Shown: positions 1,393 to 24,409 of the stretch, piece by piece
How the letters are laid out: each line of letters begins with the position of its first letter
Numbering within the stretch: position 1 is the first letter of the stretch
Virus record (IMG/VR): IMGVR_UViG_3300045978_000190
Coordinates: 1-24,409 of that record
Source: a virus
Reading direction: 5' to 3' (one strand)
Length of the DNA stretch: 24,409 nt
Notes under the pieces: model-generated
What the model saw: the letters and a program-made list of their open reading frames with translations, nothing else
What the model was told of the DNA's origin: nothing
Databases searched by the model: none
Translations under genes and position numbers: made by a program

Positions 1393-1448
1393 TGGCCCTA
1401 GGATGCGTTAGCGGGGCGCGGTTGGGTATGCTGGGGAATGGCCCCTAA
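1393..1448 (-). promoter_or_regulatory. Shared leader upstream of the PEP-CTERM gene (copy A)
   Basis: On the minus strand the leader begins TTAGGGGCC, a motif that includes the TAG stop of the methyltransferase gene, then continues with a T-C-x-C-C block and GCATA. The same pattern precedes the other PEP-CTERM gene (24268-24324). The motif ends 47 nt before the start codon here and 48 nt there. GGGG and CCCC around the motif (1433-1445) could pair. It may be a promoter or RNA leader; the role is not known. Confidence 0.5.
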
Positions 1449-2170
1449 TTTCTGAGGCGCTGGTATGCCTTCCGAAGCGGCTTGGCGTGGATGTGGCCCT
1501 CTTCCCGGTGGAGTACTACGTCTCGCCAATACAGCACGTCGACGAGCGTCAGGCCGGCCGATTCGGCGATCTCATCAATGCGGGGATGTTCGATCTGATC
1601 GCAGTTGTCGACCATCAGGATCCCGCCGGCTGAGATCCGCGGTCCAAAGAACCGCGCCTCCTGGCAGACCGTCTCAGTGTGGTGCTCTCCATCCAGGTGG
1701 ACGAGCGCGTAGCTCCAGAGCGGATCGGCCACTTGCTCGCAGTAGACGCGGCTGGTCACACGAAAGAAGTGGTAGATACCAGCATAGGCGTCCTCTATGA
1801 CGGCTCGCAGGACCCGCTCCGTCCGTTCCCTCAGATTGGAATCCTTGTAAGAGTGAATGTAGTTAGTTTCCAGACTCTCGTAGGGGTCGATCCCGTGAAA
1901 GACTCTGTTCTGAGCCGCCGTATCGAGGCCGAGCAGGGCCGCGTAGATGCCACCGCCGGCACGGATGCCAACCTCGGCGATGATTCCCTCCGCCTGGTTG
2001 TCGACGACGGCACAGCGGGCCAGGCGGGCTATGGTCGCGTAGGCCTCCGGCGCCCCGTCGCCGGTGAGCGGCCGTAGAGCCGCAGGGACGGCGATCACGT
2101 CCCAGATGTAGGGCAGCCACCGGTTGGGCCAATCGTGCGCATAGGCCTGGAATCTGTGCGGTTCCTTCAT
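1445..2170 (-). CDS. Class I SAM-dependent methyltransferase (Methyltransf_24-like)
   Basis: The protein has 241 residues from ATG at 2170, which overlaps the TGA of the upstream gene as ATGA. The longer frame reaching back to 2416 lies over that gene and reads as shadow sequence. The SAM-binding motif I is IIAEVGIRAGGG (about 63-74), followed by the acidic strand FHGIDPYE (91-98). Later come ALVHLDGEHH (155-164) and AGGILMVDN (181-189), the usual order in the TylF / cephalosporin-hydroxylase-like group that methylates sugars and small molecules. It is the last of four overlapping sugar-modifying genes, so O-methylation of a glycan is the likely job. The substrate is unknown. It could modify host surface polysaccharide or phage tail proteins. 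Confidence 0.8.
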   Translation of the reverse strand: MKEPHRFQAYAHDWPNRWLPYIWDVIAVPAALRPLTGDGAPEAYATIARLARCAVVDNQAEGIIAEVGIRAGGGIYAALLGLDTAAQNRVFHGIDPYESLETNYIHSYKDSNLRERTERVLRAVIEDAYAGIYHFFRVTSRVYCEQVADPLWSYALVHLDGEHHTETVCQEARFFGPRISAGGILMVDNCDQIEHPRIDEIAESAGLTLVDVLYWRDVVLHREEGHIHAKPLRKAYQRLRN

Positions 2171-3405
2171 CGGGCGCGGAACTGAATGCCGTAGCCGTAG
2201 ATCCCATCCCATGGGTAATGGATGACGGAAATATCCTCGATGTTCCATCCGCCGGCTTCGATGTGCGGCACCATGTGAGGTAAGAGCTTGAGCTCGCCAT
2301 GATAGGCCGGGATGCCAGGCGCATACTCGTGCCCGGCCTGCTCGCCCTGTTGCTCGGGCGGCCGCGGGTCGAAGGGGAAGGTAACGAGGAGGATCCGGCC
2401 CGAGGCCACAACGCACTTGCGCGCCTCGGCGGCGCTGTGCGTTATCTCGGCCATGGGCAGATGCTCGAGGATGTCGCCCATGACGACCACGTCAAAGCGG
2501 TTGTGCAGGTGGGCCGGCATCGCCCGACAATCCGCCACCTCGTCAATCAAGCTCTCCCGGCCGGTCCACGGGCACCGTTCATTGATGTCAATGTTGTAGG
2601 CCCCATAGCGCTTCTTCAGATGCGCCGGATCTGCCGAGGCGCCGACGTTGAGGATCCGTGAGGTGGGGCGCCGCTTGCAGATCTCGGCGACGGCCGCCGC
2701 CTGATATTCCACGTGCCCCTCATAGGACGGATAGCCCTTGTCCCGGAACTGTGCCACATACTCCATCAAGCGCCACTTTCCCCAGTGGGCCGCATAGTGG
2801 AGGAACCAAGCATCCGTCTCTCCGGAGAAGCTCGCTAGGTGGTTCCATGTTTCATCCAGATCGGAGACCCGAAGCTCGGCGCGACGCACCGCCAGGTTGA
2901 AGCCGTGCTGATCCGCCCAGCCGTCCACGTAGGGCGGTCCCAACTGACGGCTGAGCCGGAGAACGCTCTGGCGGCGCATCAGCCAGACGCCGCTGTTGTA
3001 GTAGGGATGGAACTCGTCTCCCTCGCGGTTCATGATGTCGCGGCACCAGTTCAGGAACGCGTCCGGATGCATGAGGCGATCCTGCCAAAGCCAATCGGAG
3101 TCCGCATCGTGCTCCTCGAAGATGTTCGGCGCATCCGGTTTCGGGATCACGTCCAGATCGATGAAGAGGATGCGCTCATACTCCGAGAGCGCCGCCCAGC
3201 GGATGGCGTCGTATTTGATGAAATGCCTGCACGGGTAGCCGCCGCCCCAGTCCTCTTCAGTGATCTCCCGGAAGGCCGCGCCGCACCGGGCAGCGTATTC
3301 CCGCTGGAAGGGCAGCGTATAGAGGTGATAGTCGTAGAGCTGCGGCCCGGAGTTGACGGTCATGACGAGCCGGCGCTCACTGTCAGGATTAGAGGGCTTT
3401 TCCAT
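2167..3405 (-). CDS. Fusion protein: DxD glycosyltransferase + methyltransferase
   Basis: The protein has 412 residues in two parts. Residues 1 to about 220 look like a GT8-type or related retaining glycosyltransferase: strand RRLVMTVNSG, the metal-binding ILFIDLDVIPKPDA (DLD at 83-85), and NSGVWLMRR (137-145). Residues about 235-412 are a class I methyltransferase: RILNVGASADP (250-260), the acidic strand NIDINE (271-276) and FDVVVMGDILEHLP (304-317), which matches the D-x-L-E-H motif of Methyltransf_11-like enzymes. One polypeptide could thus add a sugar and methylate it. The start at 3405 overlaps the upstream gene by 17 bp. A later ATG (3363) would remove the first beta strand, so it is less likely. 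The acceptor glycan is unknown. Confidence 0.75.
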   Translation of the reverse strand: MEKPSNPDSERRLVMTVNSGPQLYDYHLYTLPFQREYAARCGAAFREITEEDWGGGYPCRHFIKYDAIRWAALSEYERILFIDLDVIPKPDAPNIFEEHDADSDWLWQDRLMHPDAFLNWCRDIMNREGDEFHPYYNSGVWLMRRQSVLRLSRQLGPPYVDGWADQHGFNLAVRRAELRVSDLDETWNHLASFSGETDAWFLHYAAHWGKWRLMEYVAQFRDKGYPSYEGHVEYQAAAVAEICKRRPTSRILNVGASADPAHLKKRYGAYNIDINERCPWTGRESLIDEVADCRAMPAHLHNRFDVVVMGDILEHLPMAEITHSAAEARKCVVASGRILLVTFPFDPRPPEQQGEQAGHEYAPGIPAYHGELKLLPHMVPHIEAGGWNIEDISVIHYPWDGIYGYGIQFRAR

Positions 3406-4030
3406 TTTGCCAGATCGTAGAGGGAAGGGACCAGTTGGCCGTCGCGATCGGAACCCGGAGCATCCAGGCGCTGATGTATTGGGCCTGATAGGCGTAGAGG
3501 ACGTCTACGGGGGTGTTGATGGGCAGCAGGACCTCCAGGAGCCGCGCGGCGCCGGCCGGGCTGACCAGGTAGGCCGGGATGCCGTAGGCGCTCCAGAGCG
3601 TCCGGGCCCATGGCGAAGCCATCTCCTCGGACTCAGGGCTCTGCTCGAGCTTGTGGGTCTCGTGGTTTACGTCATCCAAGAAGGCAATGCTCCAATCCTT
3701 GGGCAGAGCGCGAATCAGAGCGCGAATCATCGCGCCGGCATTCTTCGCCGTCCAGGTAACGTCATCCTCAATCACCAGATACGGGTTCTGCGAGGCGGCG
3801 ACGAGCTTCAGAATGTCGGCATGGCCCTGGGCGGCGCAGATCTCGGTCTTTCCCATCGCGCTTCTGGCATGGTCCGTAAAGGTGCATCCATCCATGTTTG
3901 CCGGCGTGTGACCCCAAAACATCAACGGCCGGATGCCGGCTCTCTCACATTGGCGGAGGGCGTATTCCCAGCGGTCAGGCCGGTTCTTTACCGCGAGCAT
4001 GATCGCCGGAGGCGAGCTTAGGCCATCCAT
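3389..4030 (-). CDS. Glycosyltransferase, GT25 (LPS biosynthesis type)
   Basis: This is a 213-residue protein. The N-terminus PPAIMLAVKNRPDRWEYA matches the 'hxxhNLxxRxxR' opening of GT25 enzymes. It is followed by MGKTEICAAQGHADILK (59-75), equivalent to the family's 'G.iGC..SH...' segment, and YLVIEDDV (84-91) with the EDD metal-binding motif. A GIPAYLVSPAGAARLL segment (about 150-165) matches 'aYliS..gA..ll'. GT25 enzymes typically transfer galactose or related sugars in LPS, O-antigen or capsule synthesis on the cytoplasmic side. The start at 4030 overlaps the upstream gene by 13 bp; an ATG at 4000 is an alternative. The sugar donor and acceptor cannot be read from the sequence. Confidence 0.75.
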   Translation of the reverse strand: MDGLSSPPAIMLAVKNRPDRWEYALRQCERAGIRPLMFWGHTPANMDGCTFTDHARSAMGKTEICAAQGHADILKLVAASQNPYLVIEDDVTWTAKNAGAMIRALIRALPKDWSIAFLDDVNHETHKLEQSPESEEMASPWARTLWSAYGIPAYLVSPAGAARLLEVLLPINTPVDVLYAYQAQYISAWMLRVPIATANWSLPSTIWQNGKAL

Positions 4031-4803
4031 CGTTTAGGCGTCTCATCCGAGCCCCAGGAGCATTCGGATTCGTGAAGGGCAAAGGTGAAATGCCGGATTG
4101 GGCCGAAGATCCGGCGGTTGAAGAGCCCGTAGTAGCACGGCAGCGAAAGGCCCTTGTAGTCCTCCTGATAGGCGGACCTCACCATGCGGAGGAAGTAGGC
4201 GAGCCGGTGGGGCCCGAAGGCCTGGAGGGTCGGGCGGTCGCGGAACTTCCACGCATAGGTCAGGAAGTGGCGCCAAAACCGCAGGCCCGGCCTGCTGAAC
4301 ATTAGACCGTTGGCGATCCCAGGCCCGAAGGAATCAATGCTGCGGCATTCCTCGAAGAAGATCAGCTTGTGTTCGCCGATCGGCTTCGATAGGTCGCGCA
4401 CTCTCTCGCAGTCCTCATCGGTTAGGAGGTCGAACCTGTAGACCCCATCACAATGCACGCGCGTCTCCTCGAAGAGTTCCCAGATGGGGCGCACAGGAAC
4501 GATGTCGAGATCGGAATAGAGGCCGCCGTAATGATATAAAACCACGTAGCGCGCAAAGTCCGCCTTCTTGATGTGCGGGAAATCTCCCTTGATGAGCGGG
4601 ATCTGGTCCCACTTGCGACGCCAGCGGCTGTTTCGGACGAGCCTATCTAAATCGTCAGCGCTCCAAAAGCGGATGCTCCATTCCGGATTGAGCCGTTGCC
4701 ATAGGTCCAAGTGTTCGGTGTATTGCTCGGGCATGTGCCCGCGGCCCTGCCACCAAGACACGTGGATGATCTTCGGAATCCATGGCCACGGAATAGCCAG
4801 CAT
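4018..4803 (-). CDS. Glycosyltransferase, GT32-like (DXD sugar-binding)
   Basis: This is a 261-residue protein. It opens PKIIHVSWWQG (10-20), the 'IPKiIHqiW' hallmark of GT32/Och1-like and capsular polysaccharide transferases. The catalytic block KKADFARYVVLYHYGG followed by LYSDLDIVP (79-103) contains the DxD motif at 98-100. A late NGLMFSRPGLRFW segment is also typical. It would act in the cytoplasm, adding a sugar to a surface glycan or a protein. It is the first of the four tightly overlapping sugar genes and starts 6 bp after the stop of the Tad1-like gene. I see no export signal. Confident in the fold, not in the substrate. Confidence 0.85.
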   Translation of the reverse strand: MLAIPWPWIPKIIHVSWWQGRGHMPEQYTEHLDLWQRLNPEWSIRFWSADDLDRLVRNSRWRRKWDQIPLIKGDFPHIKKADFARYVVLYHYGGLYSDLDIVPVRPIWELFEETRVHCDGVYRFDLLTDEDCERVRDLSKPIGEHKLIFFEECRSIDSFGPGIANGLMFSRPGLRFWRHFLTYAWKFRDRPTLQAFGPHRLAYFLRMVRSAYQEDYKGLSLPCYYGLFNRRIFGPIRHFTFALHESECSWGSDETPKRWMA

Positions 4804-4809
4804 GGCGGA

Positions 4810-5172
4810 TCACTCGGCGTGCGTACCCTCAACACCCCGCTGTTCACGGTCGGCGGTGCGGGTGTTGAGTGCCTGGAGGGCGGACCGCAGAAACAGCAGG
4901 GCCGAAGCATTCGCCTCGCAGGCGAAGCGGCTCTGCTGGTAATAATCGATCCTGTCAGCAGCCGCGGCGATGACATCCTCGACGAATGCCCCGTTGGGCT
5001 CTTTCCGTTCTGGATCTCTACCTAGCGGCCCGTTCTGCCAACTGATCGCGAAGCCTGTCCCGTAGGTAGAACCGCCGGCCGGATTTCCATCCGGATCGGC
5101 CCAGTGTTGGGATTTGAATCCTATTCTCATGACGTGGTTTTTTGATGCGTTGAGGATCTGGCCAAAAATCAT
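4810..5172 (-). CDS. Tad1-like protein (Acb2/Tad1 hairpin), candidate anti-Thoeris sponge
   Basis: This is a 120-residue protein. Conserved blocks as I remember them for the Tad1 family are all present: a QHWADPDGNPAGG beta segment (about 22-34), GTGFAISWQNGPLG (38-51), PNGAFVEDVIAAA (59-71), a two-helix hairpin, and the C-terminal RTADREQRGVEGTH motif. Tad1 proteins bind and sequester the TIR-derived gcADPR signal and so block the Thoeris defence. Older annotations of such proteins are often wrong ('ABC transporter ATPase'). ATG at 5172 overlaps the stop of the HTH gene (ATGA). ATG at 5130 is an alternative that would start just before the conserved part. Assignment is from memory of the family and needs a profile search. 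Confidence 0.65.
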   Translation of the reverse strand: MIFGQILNASKNHVMRIGFKSQHWADPDGNPAGGSTYGTGFAISWQNGPLGRDPERKEPNGAFVEDVIAAAADRIDYYQQSRFACEANASALLFLRSALQALNTRTADREQRGVEGTHAE

Positions 5173-20055: not shown

Positions 20056-20661
20056 TTAGGGTTCGAGTTCTTTCAGGCGGTTCTTGATGCCTTCTAGGTA
20101 GGCGTTGGAAATCTCCCCAAGCGGCGGGAGCGCTCCCGGCCAGGGCTTCTGATTGACCCTCTTGCGCAGCAGATAGATGACCCGCAGGCCGCCCGCCCCG
20201 TCATCCTGGGCCAAGTAGGATTTGCCCTTGGGGCGAAATACCCGGCCGAAGGCGCGAACGTAATCAGCCACCCGGCGCGCGTGCGCCTCGGGCACCATCG
20301 GGATCGTCAGGGCCTTCTTCTTCTTCGCCTGGATGACTCCGCCCGTGAGCTTGTGAGCGAAGCCTGGCGCGGCATTGGTCACGACGGCGCCGTCGGCGTT
20401 CGCCTGGGTCACCGCCCAGGCGCGCACGATCAACTCACCGAACCGTGAGCGGTGCCTGCCCGCTCCATGGGTGGGGAGCTGGGGATTGGTCCAGCGGCGC
20501 GCGCCCTCGTAGTCCCGATGGTAATTCCTCAGAAACTTCACGGCCTCGCGGCCGCCCAGGTCATTCATCTGGGCCCGCCCGCTCGCGCCGATGCCGGCCA
20601 GGATGCCCCGAACGGCTCGCATGGATTCGTCCGATTCAATGCTGACCTCGAGCGAAATCAT
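20056..20661 (-). CDS. Phage virion morphogenesis protein (Mu gpG / tail-completion-like)
   Basis: This is a 201-residue protein. Conserved stretches include MRAVRGILAGIGASGRAQMN, REAVKFLRNYHRD, the GAGRHRSRFGELIVRAW segment and TNAAPGFAHKLTGGVIQAKKKKALTIP. The last fits the 'a..H..Gg.i..k..k.l.iP' signature of the virion morphogenesis family (gpG-like, HK97-gp10-related). These proteins act in head completion or tail joining. It is encoded right after the portal with an ATGA overlap (20658-20661). The family's usual place and length (about 150-200 residues) fit. No separate gpF-like minor head gene is seen between the portal and this gene. Confidence 0.75.
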   Translation of the reverse strand: MISLEVSIESDESMRAVRGILAGIGASGRAQMNDLGGREAVKFLRNYHRDYEGARRWTNPQLPTHGAGRHRSRFGELIVRAWAVTQANADGAVVTNAAPGFAHKLTGGVIQAKKKKALTIPMVPEAHARRVADYVRAFGRVFRPKGKSYLAQDDGAGGLRVIYLLRKRVNQKPWPGALPPLGEISNAYLEGIKNRLKELEP

Positions 20662-22328
20662 ACGTCTATCCTCCCCACGGTTCCGGACAGGAGCCCGGCT
20701 GAGATCGATTCCTCCAGGGCCGTCTTCAGGGTTTCGGTGTCGAGCTTGTTGAACAGTTCTGGCATCTGCCGTCTCGCTGCCGTCACGGTGTTGAGAAACT
20801 GCTTGTCTGTGACCTCACCGCTCCGGGCGGCCCGGATCAGGGCCTCGAAGTAAGGCCGCACCCCGGAGAGCCATTGGAGCTTCACGTCAGTCAGGCCGCC
20901 CAGCACCATGTCGACCAGCCGATCGAGTTCCTTCTGCCGCTTTCGGGTTTCGGCGCGCGCGGCCTCCACGGCTTCGGCATCTTCGGGCATAGGCTCAGGG
21001 TCTTCAGTCTCATCTCCGCCCATGCCGGCCGGTTGCGGCTTCGCGGGCGGCTTGAAAAGCTCATCCTCGGGCGCCGGCATCGGGACTCCATGCCGCTCGT
21101 AGAGCCAGGACGAGGCGACCGGCAGGCCCATATCGGTGAAGAGGATCTTGTCGCGGTTCGCCATCGCCATCTCATCCTCGGGCTCCTCGATGCCTGGATC
21201 CAGCCAGGGCAGCCCGTCCACCTCCCCGAAGTTCAGCGCGATTATCGAGGGGATCAGTTGGTGATTGATCACCGCCGCGGCCATGTCGGCGCACCCACAA
21301 AGCACTTCCATCCGAACGCCCTCGTGCACGTCCCCTAGGGCGCGGCTCCCCGAATCCCCAACGTCGGAGGTCAGGGTCTGGCCGAGGATCAGGATGTCCG
21401 CCTGAGTATCAGCACGGTCGAGGAGTGCGCCCTGGGGAAGGGATGTGGCGGCCCGGTTCGCCTCTTGGATCTGTAGGCTCGTACCTTCCGGAAAGGCTCC
21501 CCAGCCGGAAGTCCCGATGTTGCTCAGCATGGCCTCGATCTCGCCAATCAGGGTCTCATCGCGGTAGGTGGCCCACCTGAGCGGGATGCCATAGATCTGG
21601 CTAAACTGCATGAACCACTTCAGCCCGTAGCGTTGCGCGACCCACCAGCCAACGAGGCTACGCATCGGAGCCGCGACGGAGGCATGGCCCGTATGGGCCC
21701 GGTAGTTGCCGATCAGGAAGTGATGTTCGGGAAAATCCTCGAGCTGCCCGTTGTAGTAGCCGCTTGGCTTCAGCATCAGCCGGTCCTCCTCGCCGCGGTG
21801 GCAGGGATAGCCGAGGTATTGGGCCGATACGGTGCGGGCCGCCCTCGGGAGGATGCCGTCAATGGTCGAGTGCCAGTAGACCTCAAGTACCCGTGTCCCT
21901 CCGAAGGCGGCCGTTGCCAACCATCCCACCAAACCCTCGAACCCATCCTCCTGATAGGTGGGCCTCGGCGTCATGGACCAGATCGCTTTCTCGATGTATT
22001 CAGCGATCTCCTGCGCTTGCGGGGTTGGATCCTTCCCCTTTTCCGCAAAGGGCTGGACGCTCCAGGGCGCCTTGCCGACGGCCCGCCTGACTTCGCTCAT
22101 GTTCTTGCTGAGCCGCGGCCACGTGTCGACCATCAGCTCGAAGAGGTAGCCCTGCTGGGTGAGGTCGCCCTGGAGGGCGCTGGCCAGGATCTGCTCGATC
22201 CGGACGGGCAGCAGGTCGCGCTCGACGTAGCTGAACAATCGCTCGGTCGCATCCGGGACAATAACCGGCACCTTGGGCGGTACCTTCTGCGCGGCCCGGG
22301 TCTGCGCGGCTGTAACTCTACGTTTCAT
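20658..22328 (-). CDS. Portal protein (DUF935, Mu gp29-like)
   Basis: This is a 556-residue protein. Typical DUF935 segments are visible in order: LLPVRIEQILASALQGDLTQ near residue 40, LFELMVDTWPRLSKNMSEVR, an LVGWWVAQRYGLKWFMQFSQ helix, YGIPLRWATY, TLTSDVGDSGSRALGDVHEG (the 'T.....sga.A.a.vh..v' block), and ILFTDMGLPVASSWLYERHG followed by P-x-P. The C-terminal acidic part (about 430-475) and final helices are also usual. It forms the dodecameric vertex through which DNA is packaged and ejected. ATG at 22328 overlaps the stop of the small lipoprotein gene (ATGA). Confidence 0.9.
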   Translation of the reverse strand: MKRRVTAAQTRAAQKVPPKVPVIVPDATERLFSYVERDLLPVRIEQILASALQGDLTQQGYLFELMVDTWPRLSKNMSEVRRAVGKAPWSVQPFAEKGKDPTPQAQEIAEYIEKAIWSMTPRPTYQEDGFEGLVGWLATAAFGGTRVLEVYWHSTIDGILPRAARTVSAQYLGYPCHRGEEDRLMLKPSGYYNGQLEDFPEHHFLIGNYRAHTGHASVAAPMRSLVGWWVAQRYGLKWFMQFSQIYGIPLRWATYRDETLIGEIEAMLSNIGTSGWGAFPEGTSLQIQEANRAATSLPQGALLDRADTQADILILGQTLTSDVGDSGSRALGDVHEGVRMEVLCGCADMAAAVINHQLIPSIIALNFGEVDGLPWLDPGIEEPEDEMAMANRDKILFTDMGLPVASSWLYERHGVPMPAPEDELFKPPAKPQPAGMGGDETEDPEPMPEDAEAVEAARAETRKRQKELDRLVDMVLGGLTDVKLQWLSGVRPYFEALIRAARSGEVTDKQFLNTVTAARRQMPELFNKLDTETLKTALEESISAGLLSGTVGRIDV

Positions 22329-22477
22329 CCCTCGGTCATTTTGACTTCGACTAGGCTTTTCCTTGGCGGCGGCTTGGGCGGATCTGCTCCGCCCTGAATC
22401 TTAATGAGCGTGCAAGCATTGAGTATCCCCCCAGTTAGGAGGGCCAGGATAACAAGCCTGAATCGAACATCGCTCAT
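22325..22477 (-). CDS. Small lipoprotein, o-spanin candidate
   Basis: This 50-residue protein begins MSDVRFRLVILALLTGGILN, followed by AC. It has an N-terminal basic/hydrophobic signal and a lipobox L-N-A-C with the cysteine at residue 22. After it come only ~28 residues, rich in proline and lysine (DPPKPPPRKS). Such tiny proline-rich lipoproteins are typical of outer-membrane spanins (Rz1 type) that help break the outer membrane. No inner-membrane spanin with a long periplasmic coiled coil is seen next to it, so the call is tentative. The ATG overlaps the TGA of the holin-like gene, and the TGA overlaps the portal ATG. A long frame running to 22849 covers this gene but is not the likely start. 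Confidence 0.6.
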   Translation of the reverse strand: MSDVRFRLVILALLTGGILNACTLIKIQGGADPPKPPPRKSLVEVKMTEG

Positions 22478-22641
22478 CGGCCGTTCTGGATCGGCTCCCC
22501 AAAGACCGCCCACCCCAGGACGAGCAGCAGCAGGAACAGGAGCAGGTGAGCCCCGGATTTCTTGTGATCGGGCCAGGTTGTCCAGACCGCAAAAATTACC
22601 CATAGGATCATCAACACCCAGAAGAGGATTGAGAGTGGCAT
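22474..22641 (-). CDS. Small two-TM membrane protein, holin candidate
   Basis: This 55-residue protein is easily missed because of its size. It begins MPLSILFWVLMILWVIFAVW (TM1), has a short basic, polar turn (PDHKKSG), then HLLLFLLLLVLGWAVFG (TM2) and a short tail. Two tight membrane helices with a polar loop and a very small size are typical of holins or of short tail/lysis membrane proteins. Its neighbour is a spanin-like lipoprotein, which supports a lysis role. No endolysin is visible nearby. It starts 18 bp after the serine-protease stop and overlaps the next gene as ATGA. Confidence 0.65.
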   Translation of the reverse strand: MPLSILFWVLMILWVIFAVWTTWPDHKKSGAHLLLFLLLLVLGWAVFGEPIQNGR

Positions 22642-22659: not shown

Positions 22660-24267
22660 TTATTTGCTGTCGCTGACCGGCTCCTGCATGGAGTCGAAAG
22701 CCTTGCGGATGTCCGAGCCGACGTAGGCCGAGAGGTAACAGGTCCCGATCGTCGATGAGGAGTGGGTGGCCACCAGAACGGGCTCGCCCCGGAAGAGGAT
22801 GAAAACGGGGTGCCCGGAATCCCCGGTTGTCAGCGGCGGTCCCTCCCATGTGGGATTAGTGCCCGGCTTATAGTCCACCATCCCCGCCAACCCGTAGGGA
22901 TCCGTGACCCGGATGCCCTCGATGTACCACGCGCCCGCAGCCTCCAGGCCAATCACGGACGCGCTGCGCGCCGGAACGTCGGGCGAGCGCTGGTTGTATT
23001 TGGTCCTGATCGCCTGCGCGCCGTCGTAGGAGTGGACCCGCTGAAGCGCGAGGGTCCGGTAGTGGCGCACTGAACTGGGCAGGTCCGCATCGAGGAGGTA
23101 ACACCCGATGTCAGTCTTCCCCGCTCGGGCGCGCGCGACAATGGTCCTGGAGTGCGCCTGCCCGTTCCGGTCGTAGAAGGTGACCACATGCCCGACCGCG
23201 TAGGCGAACCACGCCTCCGGGTTGCCGTAGTTACTTCCATAGTAGTGATGGGCGCATACCATGTGACGGCGGCCAATCAGCGTCCCGGCTCTGCTGTGGT
23301 TCCAGACCACACCCGAGAAATCGATGTCCCAGTGCGGGTTATAGGTCTTCTGTGTCGAGCTGTAGTGCGAGAAAATCGCCCAACCGGGTCCGTTAGGTGG
23401 CAGGCATTGAAGGGTTTCGGCGGTGATGGCTGGCGCGAGATCGATCGAGCCGGGGACCCCTCCGGCGCGGGCCGCGATCAGATCCTTGCGCTTGAGGTAT
23501 CCCGGCGGCGGTCCATGCCGGGGCGTTGGATCGTCCATGGGCCGCGGGTCGAGGATCTCCACGGGCTTGACGCCGGCCGGGTAGTGGTGGCCCCGGTAGG
23601 CGCACCCGCTCAGGAGCGCGCATGCCAGTAGGAACGGAATCAGGGCCGCAGCTCGGCGGCGGCGGAGGACTAAGACGACCAAGCCCAGGAGGGCCAACCC
23701 CAGCGTTCCGGCCTCGGGGATCAGGATCAGCCCTGGGCCTTTGGCGAAGTTAGTCTCCGCCCCGCCGACGATTTGCCCGACGTCGAACACCGAATTCGCG
23801 CCCGGCTCATCCTCGAGGTAGATCGATGCCGGCGCCGGGTCGCGATTGGAGGTAAACGAGATGCTCGAGAATCCCTCCGGAAGGGTGAAGGTGACGGCGG
23901 AGGGGAGCAGGTTCGCGGGTCCGAAGGTGTAGGAGTCCATCGGAGCATCCACGCCATCGAAACGGACTGAGTGGAGCGCCAGGGGATCGGTGAGAGTGTC
24001 GCCCGCGATCAGCTCCGCCGGCAGGTCGAGGGAGAAGACAGTGGCCGGCGAATCCGATCCTGGCAGAAACTGATAGGTGTAGAGCGCACTGGATGCCGAC
24101 TCGGCCTCGATCTCCCAGACAAGCGCCGCCGGGCCCCATGGATCATTGCCAAGATCGGCAAATAGGAGCAGGGTCCCGGAAATCGTGGTGAGCTCGCCCT
24201 CGTCCGGAATAGCAGCGGGCGCCGCACATGCGGGCATGGTCAATGCTAGGATGAGGGCGCGGCGCAT
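22660..24267 (-). CDS. PEP-CTERM domain + lipobox + trypsin-like serine protease, single frame
   Basis: One 535-codon frame combines three elements. Residues 1-20 are a signal peptide (MRRALILALTMPACAAPAA), followed by a beta-rich region and a PEP-CTERM tail: IPEA (183-186), a hydrophobic stretch, then RRRR at 202-205. Next is a second hydrophobic segment with a lipobox, ALIPFLLACALLSGC (cysteine at 222). The rest (about 290-520) is a chymotrypsin-like protease: His in MVCAHHYYG (337-344), Asp in KTDIGCYLLD (about 386) and the serine motif TGDSGHPVF (481-489, Ser 484). The frame may encode one polyprotein, or two proteins with an internal TTG start at 23682 (residue 196). In either case the last part would be exported. 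It is the first whole gene of the window, just after the terminase-like 3' end. Confidence 0.75.
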   Translation of the reverse strand: MRRALILALTMPACAAPAAIPDEGELTTISGTLLLFADLGNDPWGPAALVWEIEAESASSALYTYQFLPGSDSPATVFSLDLPAELIAGDTLTDPLALHSVRFDGVDAPMDSYTFGPANLLPSAVTFTLPEGFSSISFTSNRDPAPASIYLEDEPGANSVFDVGQIVGGAETNFAKGPGLILIPEAGTLGLALLGLVVLVLRRRRAAALIPFLLACALLSGCAYRGHHYPAGVKPVEILDPRPMDDPTPRHGPPPGYLKRKDLIAARAGGVPGSIDLAPAITAETLQCLPPNGPGWAIFSHYSSTQKTYNPHWDIDFSGVVWNHSRAGTLIGRRHMVCAHHYYGSNYGNPEAWFAYAVGHVVTFYDRNGQAHSRTIVARARAGKTDIGCYLLDADLPSSVRHYRTLALQRVHSYDGAQAIRTKYNQRSPDVPARSASVIGLEAAGAWYIEGIRVTDPYGLAGMVDYKPGTNPTWEGPPLTTGDSGHPVFILFRGEPVLVATHSSSTIGTCYLSAYVGSDIRKAFDSMQEPVSDSK

Positions 24268-24324
24268 ACGGCCGCAGCATAGGGGGAGCGGCGCGCCGGC
24301 CCTATGCCGGAGATCGGCCCCTAA
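24268..24324 (-). promoter_or_regulatory. Shared leader upstream of the PEP-CTERM/protease gene (copy C)
   Basis: On the minus strand TTAGGGGCC (24324-24316) is followed by a similar T-C-x-C-C block and GCATA, matching the leader of the other PEP-CTERM gene. The TAG within the motif ends the upstream partial frame. The motif is 48 nt from the start codon, versus 47 nt in copy A. A promoter, leader or duplicated cassette are all possible. Confidence 0.5.
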
Positions 24325-24409
24325 AAACGGGTGATTGACTTCACGGCAAAGGGCGATGCTGGGGCGCGGATAGAACGTAGTTGATCGCGGGATAGGGCGC
24401 CAGTCCCGA
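24321..24409 (-). CDS. 3' end of an upstream gene (terminase large subunit by position)
   Basis: About 28 codons enter from the right edge, reading GTGALSRDQLRSIRAP, then ASPFAVKSITRF and a TAG stop at 24321-24323. The stop lies in the TTAGGGGCC motif in the same way as the stop of the methyltransferase gene does before the other PEP-CTERM gene, which supports this frame. Another frame ends earlier (SGLAPYPAINYVLSAPQH then stop). Terminase is suggested only by Mu-like gene order (terminase, then portal); nothing in the visible residues is diagnostic. Confidence 0.4.
   Translation of the reverse strand, partial: GTGALSRDQLRSIRAPASPFAVKSITRF

Follow-up and report, generated by a model that had tools for sequence, protein, structure and literature searches.

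The window analyzed here is a virus record of IMG/VR, comprising 24,409 bases, whose genes lie on the minus strand. One of these genes encodes a protein of 535 amino acids in which a PEP-CTERM-like sorting tail is followed, in the same frame, by a lipoprotein signal and a trypsin-like protease domain. We conclude that this gene very probably arose by a lineage-specific, in-frame fusion of two genes that were once separate, one for a PEP-CTERM-type surface protein and the other for a lipoprotein S1 protease. The best explanation for its product, to which we give an even chance, is an exported chain subjected to dual cutting by exosortase and signal peptidase II. The features of the fused gene are the following:

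22660..24267, minus strand: fusion ORF, 535 amino acids, ATG start; the same frame is intact in a second contig, L002
24211..24267, minus strand: probable N-terminal signal peptide, approximately residues 1-19, MRRALILALTMPACAAPAA, recognized by eye in the sequence
23722..24210, minus strand: putative exported N-terminal domain, residues 20-182, differing between contigs (allele comparison)
23653..23721, minus strand: PEP-CTERM-like tail IPEAGTLGLALLGLVVLVLRRRR, residues 183-205 (borderline scores; similar chromosomal tails)
23602..23664, minus strand: predicted lipoprotein signal peptide RRRRAAALIPFLLACALLSGC, residues 202-222, lipobox Cys222 (LSGC), the Cys being invariant in the family
23641..23643, minus strand: CTG codon 209, presumed original protease start (alignment with the initiator Met of L158)
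22681..23382, minus strand: S1 trypsin-like protease domain, approximately residues 296-529 (alignments and structure model)
23245-23247, 23110-23112 and 22816-22818, minus strand: catalytic codons H341, D386 and S484, respectively (triad alignment)
23734..24372, no strand: tract containing 77 of the 78 sites that differ from the second contig, ending just before the PEP motif (two-contig comparison)

The frame is open from the ATG at 24267 to the stop at 22660, while the other two frames across the ORF carry 12 and 9 stops; a stop-free run of such length has P ~3e-6 at the local base composition. A second record, IMGVR_UViG_3300045977_000256 (L002), spans 38,219 bases, matches the window at 99.6% and contains an intact copy of the fusion ORF with 98% amino acid identity and an identical junction. 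Within the first 9.7 kb compared, the two contigs differ at 78 sites, 77 of which are clustered between -105 and +533 of the fusion ORF, the remaining 9.2 kb holding a single one. In the N half, 45 synonymous and 13 nonsynonymous codons distinguish the two alleles (dN 0.059, dS 0.457). It looks as if the N-terminal segment, under purifying selection, had been swapped with a relative approximately 12% diverged. The swap stops short of the PEP-like motif, and its upstream limit lies too close to the contig ends for placement. Since L002 represents a different allele, a single sequencing error cannot explain the frame. An assembly or sequencing artefact that deleted a stop between two genes could be imagined from the end of the window contig, just 142 bp upstream of the start, and from the polymorphism of this region. 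However, the intact junction is common to two contigs carrying different alleles, over 600 bp separate it from the nearest contig end, and no homopolymer is present there. On the strength of the two alleles with their identical junction, a frameshift or assembly artefact was rejected as extremely improbable, and the continuous frame read in the initial annotation is almost certainly real. Because the two contigs hardly differ beyond the N half, they test the junction in one lineage only.

The N-half sequence upstream of the PEP-like tail matched no family. The tail itself had been described as a PEP-CTERM signal, an assignment that holds for its composition and proves softer than claimed for its scores. 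All three parts, motif, hydrophobic helix and RRRR, are present in IPEAGTLGLALLGLVVLVLRRRR, the motif being PEA and not PEP. The Pfam PEP-CTERM model gives 16.2 bits vs a cut-off of 20.7, and TIGR02595 (cut-off 16) scores the L002 N half at 9.3 bits and the isolated tail at 16.7 bits, the result varying with the length of the query sequence; the tail is thus at or below the curated cut-offs in every test but that of the isolated tail. Used as query, the N half retrieved chromosomal proteins of Verrucomicrobiota with tails such as VIPEASTLGLMAIGMIAVIGLSRRRKVAA and VVPEASSAALLLLGLLPILRRRR, where the stop occurs 0-6 residues past the basic box. PEA tails are encountered among such chromosomal proteins, one scoring over the TIGR02595 cut-off (20.3) and one under it (14.0). 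Known PEP-CTERM tags lie near the C-terminus, with fewer than 10 residues after the tag in 87% of cases (PMC1569441); in the fusion ORF, 330 residues follow the RRRR. Judged by tag position, the fusion protein in its present form is not a standard PEP-CTERM member; the N half alone would be.

These properties bear on the possibility that the tag is dead and plays no exosortase role, the product being either one membrane protein containing a helical hairpin or a lipoprotein protease whose leader is discarded. The borderline scores and the replacement of PEP by PEA would agree with such a protein, as would the suggestion, in the original description of the tag, that long-tailed cases may be non-functional (PMC1569441). 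On the other hand, the N half is under purifying selection, the motif, the helix and the RRRR have all been kept, PEA tails are present in the chromosomal relatives and Haloferax cuts sorting signals that lie centrally (PMC7157517). We consider a dead tag quite unlikely.

The RRRR at residues 202-205 is followed directly by AAALIPFLLACALLSGC, strongly hydrophobic stretches flank it on both sides, and it belongs to the lipoprotein signal as well as to the PEP-CTERM-like tail. The second signal-like segment noticed in the initial annotation is therefore where it had been placed, and RRRRAAALIPFLLACALLSGC has the makeup of a lipoprotein signal, with a lipobox ending in a Cys that is invariant in an alignment of 11 members (ten chromosomal proteins and the window). 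In the long frame this signal is internal, at Cys222; it would be N-terminal only given an internal start. Further downstream, the His, the Asp and the GDSG motif are invariant in the 11 chromosomal and window members and also in an alignment of 28 sequences comprising the window and viral members. Aligned in this way, the S1 triad (H341, D386 and S484) indicates that the protease domain is complete, as first described. Taken as a single sequence, the C half matched no Pfam, PHROG or NCBIfam model, and a phmmer search of the PDB with the protease sequence returned nothing useful. An AlphaFold model built from the 28-sequence alignment (pLDDT 71, pTM 0.73) was matched by Foldseek to trypsin-like proteases (prob 1.00, E 1e-7). 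Structural comparison with VIA gave Z scores of 16-17 over 180-200 residues, about 17 to both thrombin and chymotrypsin; the value for thrombin was 17.1 with an rmsd of 3.2 over 199 aligned residues. As modelled, the C half has the double beta-barrel of the trypsin fold.

Homologues of the protease were found in 24 of 388 Verrucomicrobiota genomes by sequence search and in 31 by profile search. The ten close chromosomal relatives (L147-L156), delimited by a profile E below 1e-98, share with the fusion the same catalytic domain (24-33% identity), a lipobox of their own and the invariant triad, but differ from it as separate chromosomal genes devoid of a PEP-CTERM half. All ten stand alone with their own signal peptide, and begin for instance with MKPYLLLVTVLLASC, MIRALLVLPFLSLIGGC or MKHTRWLLVVVALMASGC. 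They are surrounded by ordinary chromosomal genes, and the idea that they belong to prophages was dismissed as no sign of one appeared within 10-16 kb around them. The nearest viral relative, L158, is likewise a stand-alone lipoprotein, beginning with MRPFLLLPLFLAAC, in a phage that is otherwise different. By these alignments, the protease half is a member of a Verrucomicrobiota lipoprotein family that is chromosomal in the phylum. The initial annotation had named two genes with a stop between them as the finding that would speak against a polyprotein. The protease homologues are indeed separate genes, but a PEP-CTERM partner is found in none of the ten close chromosomal relatives, nor for the nearest viral one, and none shows such a partner with a stop in between. 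The fusion therefore occurred locally and does not represent a conserved polyprotein. A conserved polyprotein family was also discarded on the distribution of the fusion, with no fused homologue in the 388 Verrucomicrobiota genomes, nor in IMG/VR except for the second allele; a tblastn search of the INPHARED phages with the fusion yielded nothing useful.

Other combinations of these domains exist. Four Verrucomicrobiota loci (L242, L244, L245 and L247) resemble the fusion in joining the S1 superfamily to a PEP-CTERM tag; they differ in that the tag comes after the protease, at the true C-terminus, and they are more distant relatives. One of them, L244, encodes two such C-terminally tagged S1 proteases. 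In many distant phage relatives (L163, L169, L171, L174 and L178-L218), an Ig-like or other N-terminal part precedes a trypsin-like S1 domain. Some of these phages are large, and L171, the one tested among them, gave no Pfam match.

The alignments also point to the position of the lost gene boundary. Codon 209 of the fusion, a CTG, aligns with the initiator Met of L158, and 14 residues separate this position from the Cys in both proteins. The simplest reading of this alignment is that the protease gene once began at codon 209 and that the fusion removed both its start codon and the stop codon of the gene upstream. The same codon is central to a nested arrangement, in which translation of the protease would begin mostly inside the frame, at CTG209, TTG196 or TTG191, and give an ordinary lipoprotein, the long frame yielding a PEP-CTERM product with an appended tail that is processed or degraded. 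An internal start had been proposed from the outset. It is possible, although not favoured at the TTG originally suggested: codons 191 and 196 lie inside the PEP helix without a clear ribosome site. The best candidate is CTG209. Besides its alignment with a known initiator, CTG209 is overlapped by a TGA in the +1 frame (CTGATT), an arrangement resembling the common 4-nt overlaps between genes. Its weak Shine-Dalgarno sequence is no bar, many genes of this phage having none; the phage uses such sequences too rarely for Shine-Dalgarno energies to be a guide to its starts. Against this arrangement, CTG is a rare start codon and ribosomes would be free to make the fusion too. We regard it as possible but doubtful.

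The preferred explanation, dual cutting of the fused chain, can be laid out in successive steps. The first signal peptide would export the chain until the PEP-CTERM helix halts transfer, leaving the RRRR in the cytoplasm. There the RRRR would double as n-region for the lipoprotein signal, sending the chain back into the membrane and bringing the protease to the periplasm. A full-length AlphaFold model (mean pLDDT 44, N domain unresolved) contains helices at 186-202 and 206-224, of modest confidence; as expected, these two modelled helices would fit a hairpin with the RRRR inside. An exosortase, whose presence in the host is assumed and which was not found among the phage genes scanned, would cut at the PEP-like site, and Lgt together with signal peptidase II would lipidate and cut at Cys222. 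The helical hairpin would be discarded, and the chances that one chain thereby gives rise to two anchored products seem to us evenly balanced. The protease might then attack proteins of the envelope or surface, whether at lysis, in keeping with its position in a lysis slot, or during lysogeny. It had also been suggested that it acts on the first half of the protein, and nothing was found in support.

The principle of an internal sorting tag is known. HVO_0405 of Haloferax volcanii, itself the product of two fused genes, undergoes cutting in vivo at an archaeosortase signal located centrally (PMC7157517), and this precedent makes dual cutting plausible by analogy. Like the phage fusion, HVO_0405 bears a mid-chain sorting signal composed of a motif, a helix and basic residues, with a second domain after it. 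It differs as an archaeal protein, reportedly a Tat substrate with a PGF-type signal cut by ArtA, and its cutting has been shown experimentally (PMC7157517), whereas the signal of the viral fusion is PEP-CTERM-like, is followed by a lipoprotein signal and is only predicted to be cut. In bacteria, MXAN_5598 of Myxococcus xanthus has an internal MYXO-CTERM tag and is a proposed two-gene fusion with proposed processing (PMC11980579). It shares with the phage protein an internal tag of C-terminal type, but it combines an adhesin with an outer-membrane barrel and OmpA-type domains, no lipobox is reported after its tag and it is not phage-encoded. The novelty here lies in a PEP-like tag that is joined to a lipobox and encoded by a phage. 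No report of a phage protein in the exosortase pathway was found in open papers, and a literature search for phage-encoded PEP-CTERM or lipoprotein proteases in superinfection exclusion gave nothing useful. The proposed cutting, if true, would place a phage protein in this pathway. Cutting at sorting tags is hard to detect when the removed piece is tiny; with a domain of 330 residues after the tag, exosortase cutting would appear as a large size shift, as was the case with HVO_0405 for archaeosortase.

The window encodes a Mu-type portal, matched in Pfam with E 3.9e-66, along with a head maturation protease of Mu-like type and a major head protein; it is a contig of a Mu-like temperate phage. 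The second record adds the terminase, the integrase and early genes. Its two termini share an overlap of 196 bases (2 mismatches), so that the genome is likely to be close to complete, in circular or circularly permuted form. The large terminase is nearest to that of phages infecting Akkermansia muciniphila (43.7% identity), which are the closest named phages in this comparison, and the host is for this reason probably a member of the Verrucomicrobiota. The fusion occupies a slot between terminase and portal, with these borders and neighbours:

24321..24409, minus strand: 3' end (partial) of the large terminase gene, bounding the insert upstream; continuation in L006 16759-18219
22474..22641, minus strand: holin-like protein of 55 amino acids with two predicted membrane segments; putative function from place and size
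22325..22477, minus strand: outer-spanin-like small lipoprotein of 50 amino acids, lipobox LNAC; by size and place
20658..22328, minus strand: Mu-type portal protein, bounding the insert downstream (Portal_Mu E 3.9e-66)

The slot thus contains the fusion, the 55-amino acid two-segment protein and the 50-amino acid lipoprotein, the latter two matching no family. Among related IMG/VR loci in which terminase and portal could both be located, most have the two side by side. Elsewhere the slot carries small membrane proteins and lipoproteins, accompanied by an endolysin in L091, L092 and Akkermansia phage Chantilly, and by a phrog_3000 protein in L045, L049 and L087. Inheritance of the fusion from related phages was rejected, the relatives having terminase next to portal or a lysis cassette. 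Place and neighbours suggest that the fusion may have a role in lysis, and no endolysin family match was obtained among the phage genes scanned. A bolder proposal is a phage polyprotein with dual sorting: exosortase and signal peptidase II would split it into a surface protein with a PEP-CTERM anchor and a protease with a lipid anchor, the single RRRR being used by both signals, and it would replace a conventional endolysin module or strip host surface proteins; we consider it unlikely. Separately, the phrog_3000 proteins at L045 8020-8580 and L087 7391-7975 form a candidate endolysin family, that of L045 being located beside small membrane protein and lipoprotein genes.

Several other genes of the phage deserve mention. 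A second PEP-CTERM protein of 190 amino acids is encoded at 820-1392 of the window (minus strand), beside the integrase, and scores 17.8 bits with TIGR02595, above the cut-off. It was dismissed as parent of the N half, the two sequences sharing no similarity, and the phage therefore has two exosortase-type proteins; a search for relatives of this second protein gave nothing useful. A tandem pair of a 51-base unit (577-679) is found between its gene and the integrase, and the stretch 115-308 is polymorphic between the two contigs. The product of 4810-5172 (minus strand, 120 amino acids) is homologous to phrog_2428 and to structures of Thoeris anti-defense 1 (Tad1; PDB 8kbb, E 1.7e-7), which makes it a likely nucleotide-sponge anti-defence gene. 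Next to it, a run of glycosyltransferase and methyltransferase genes at 1445-4803 (minus strand; Methyltransf_24, Glyco_transf_25 and Gly_transf_sug) is perhaps devoted to surface modification.
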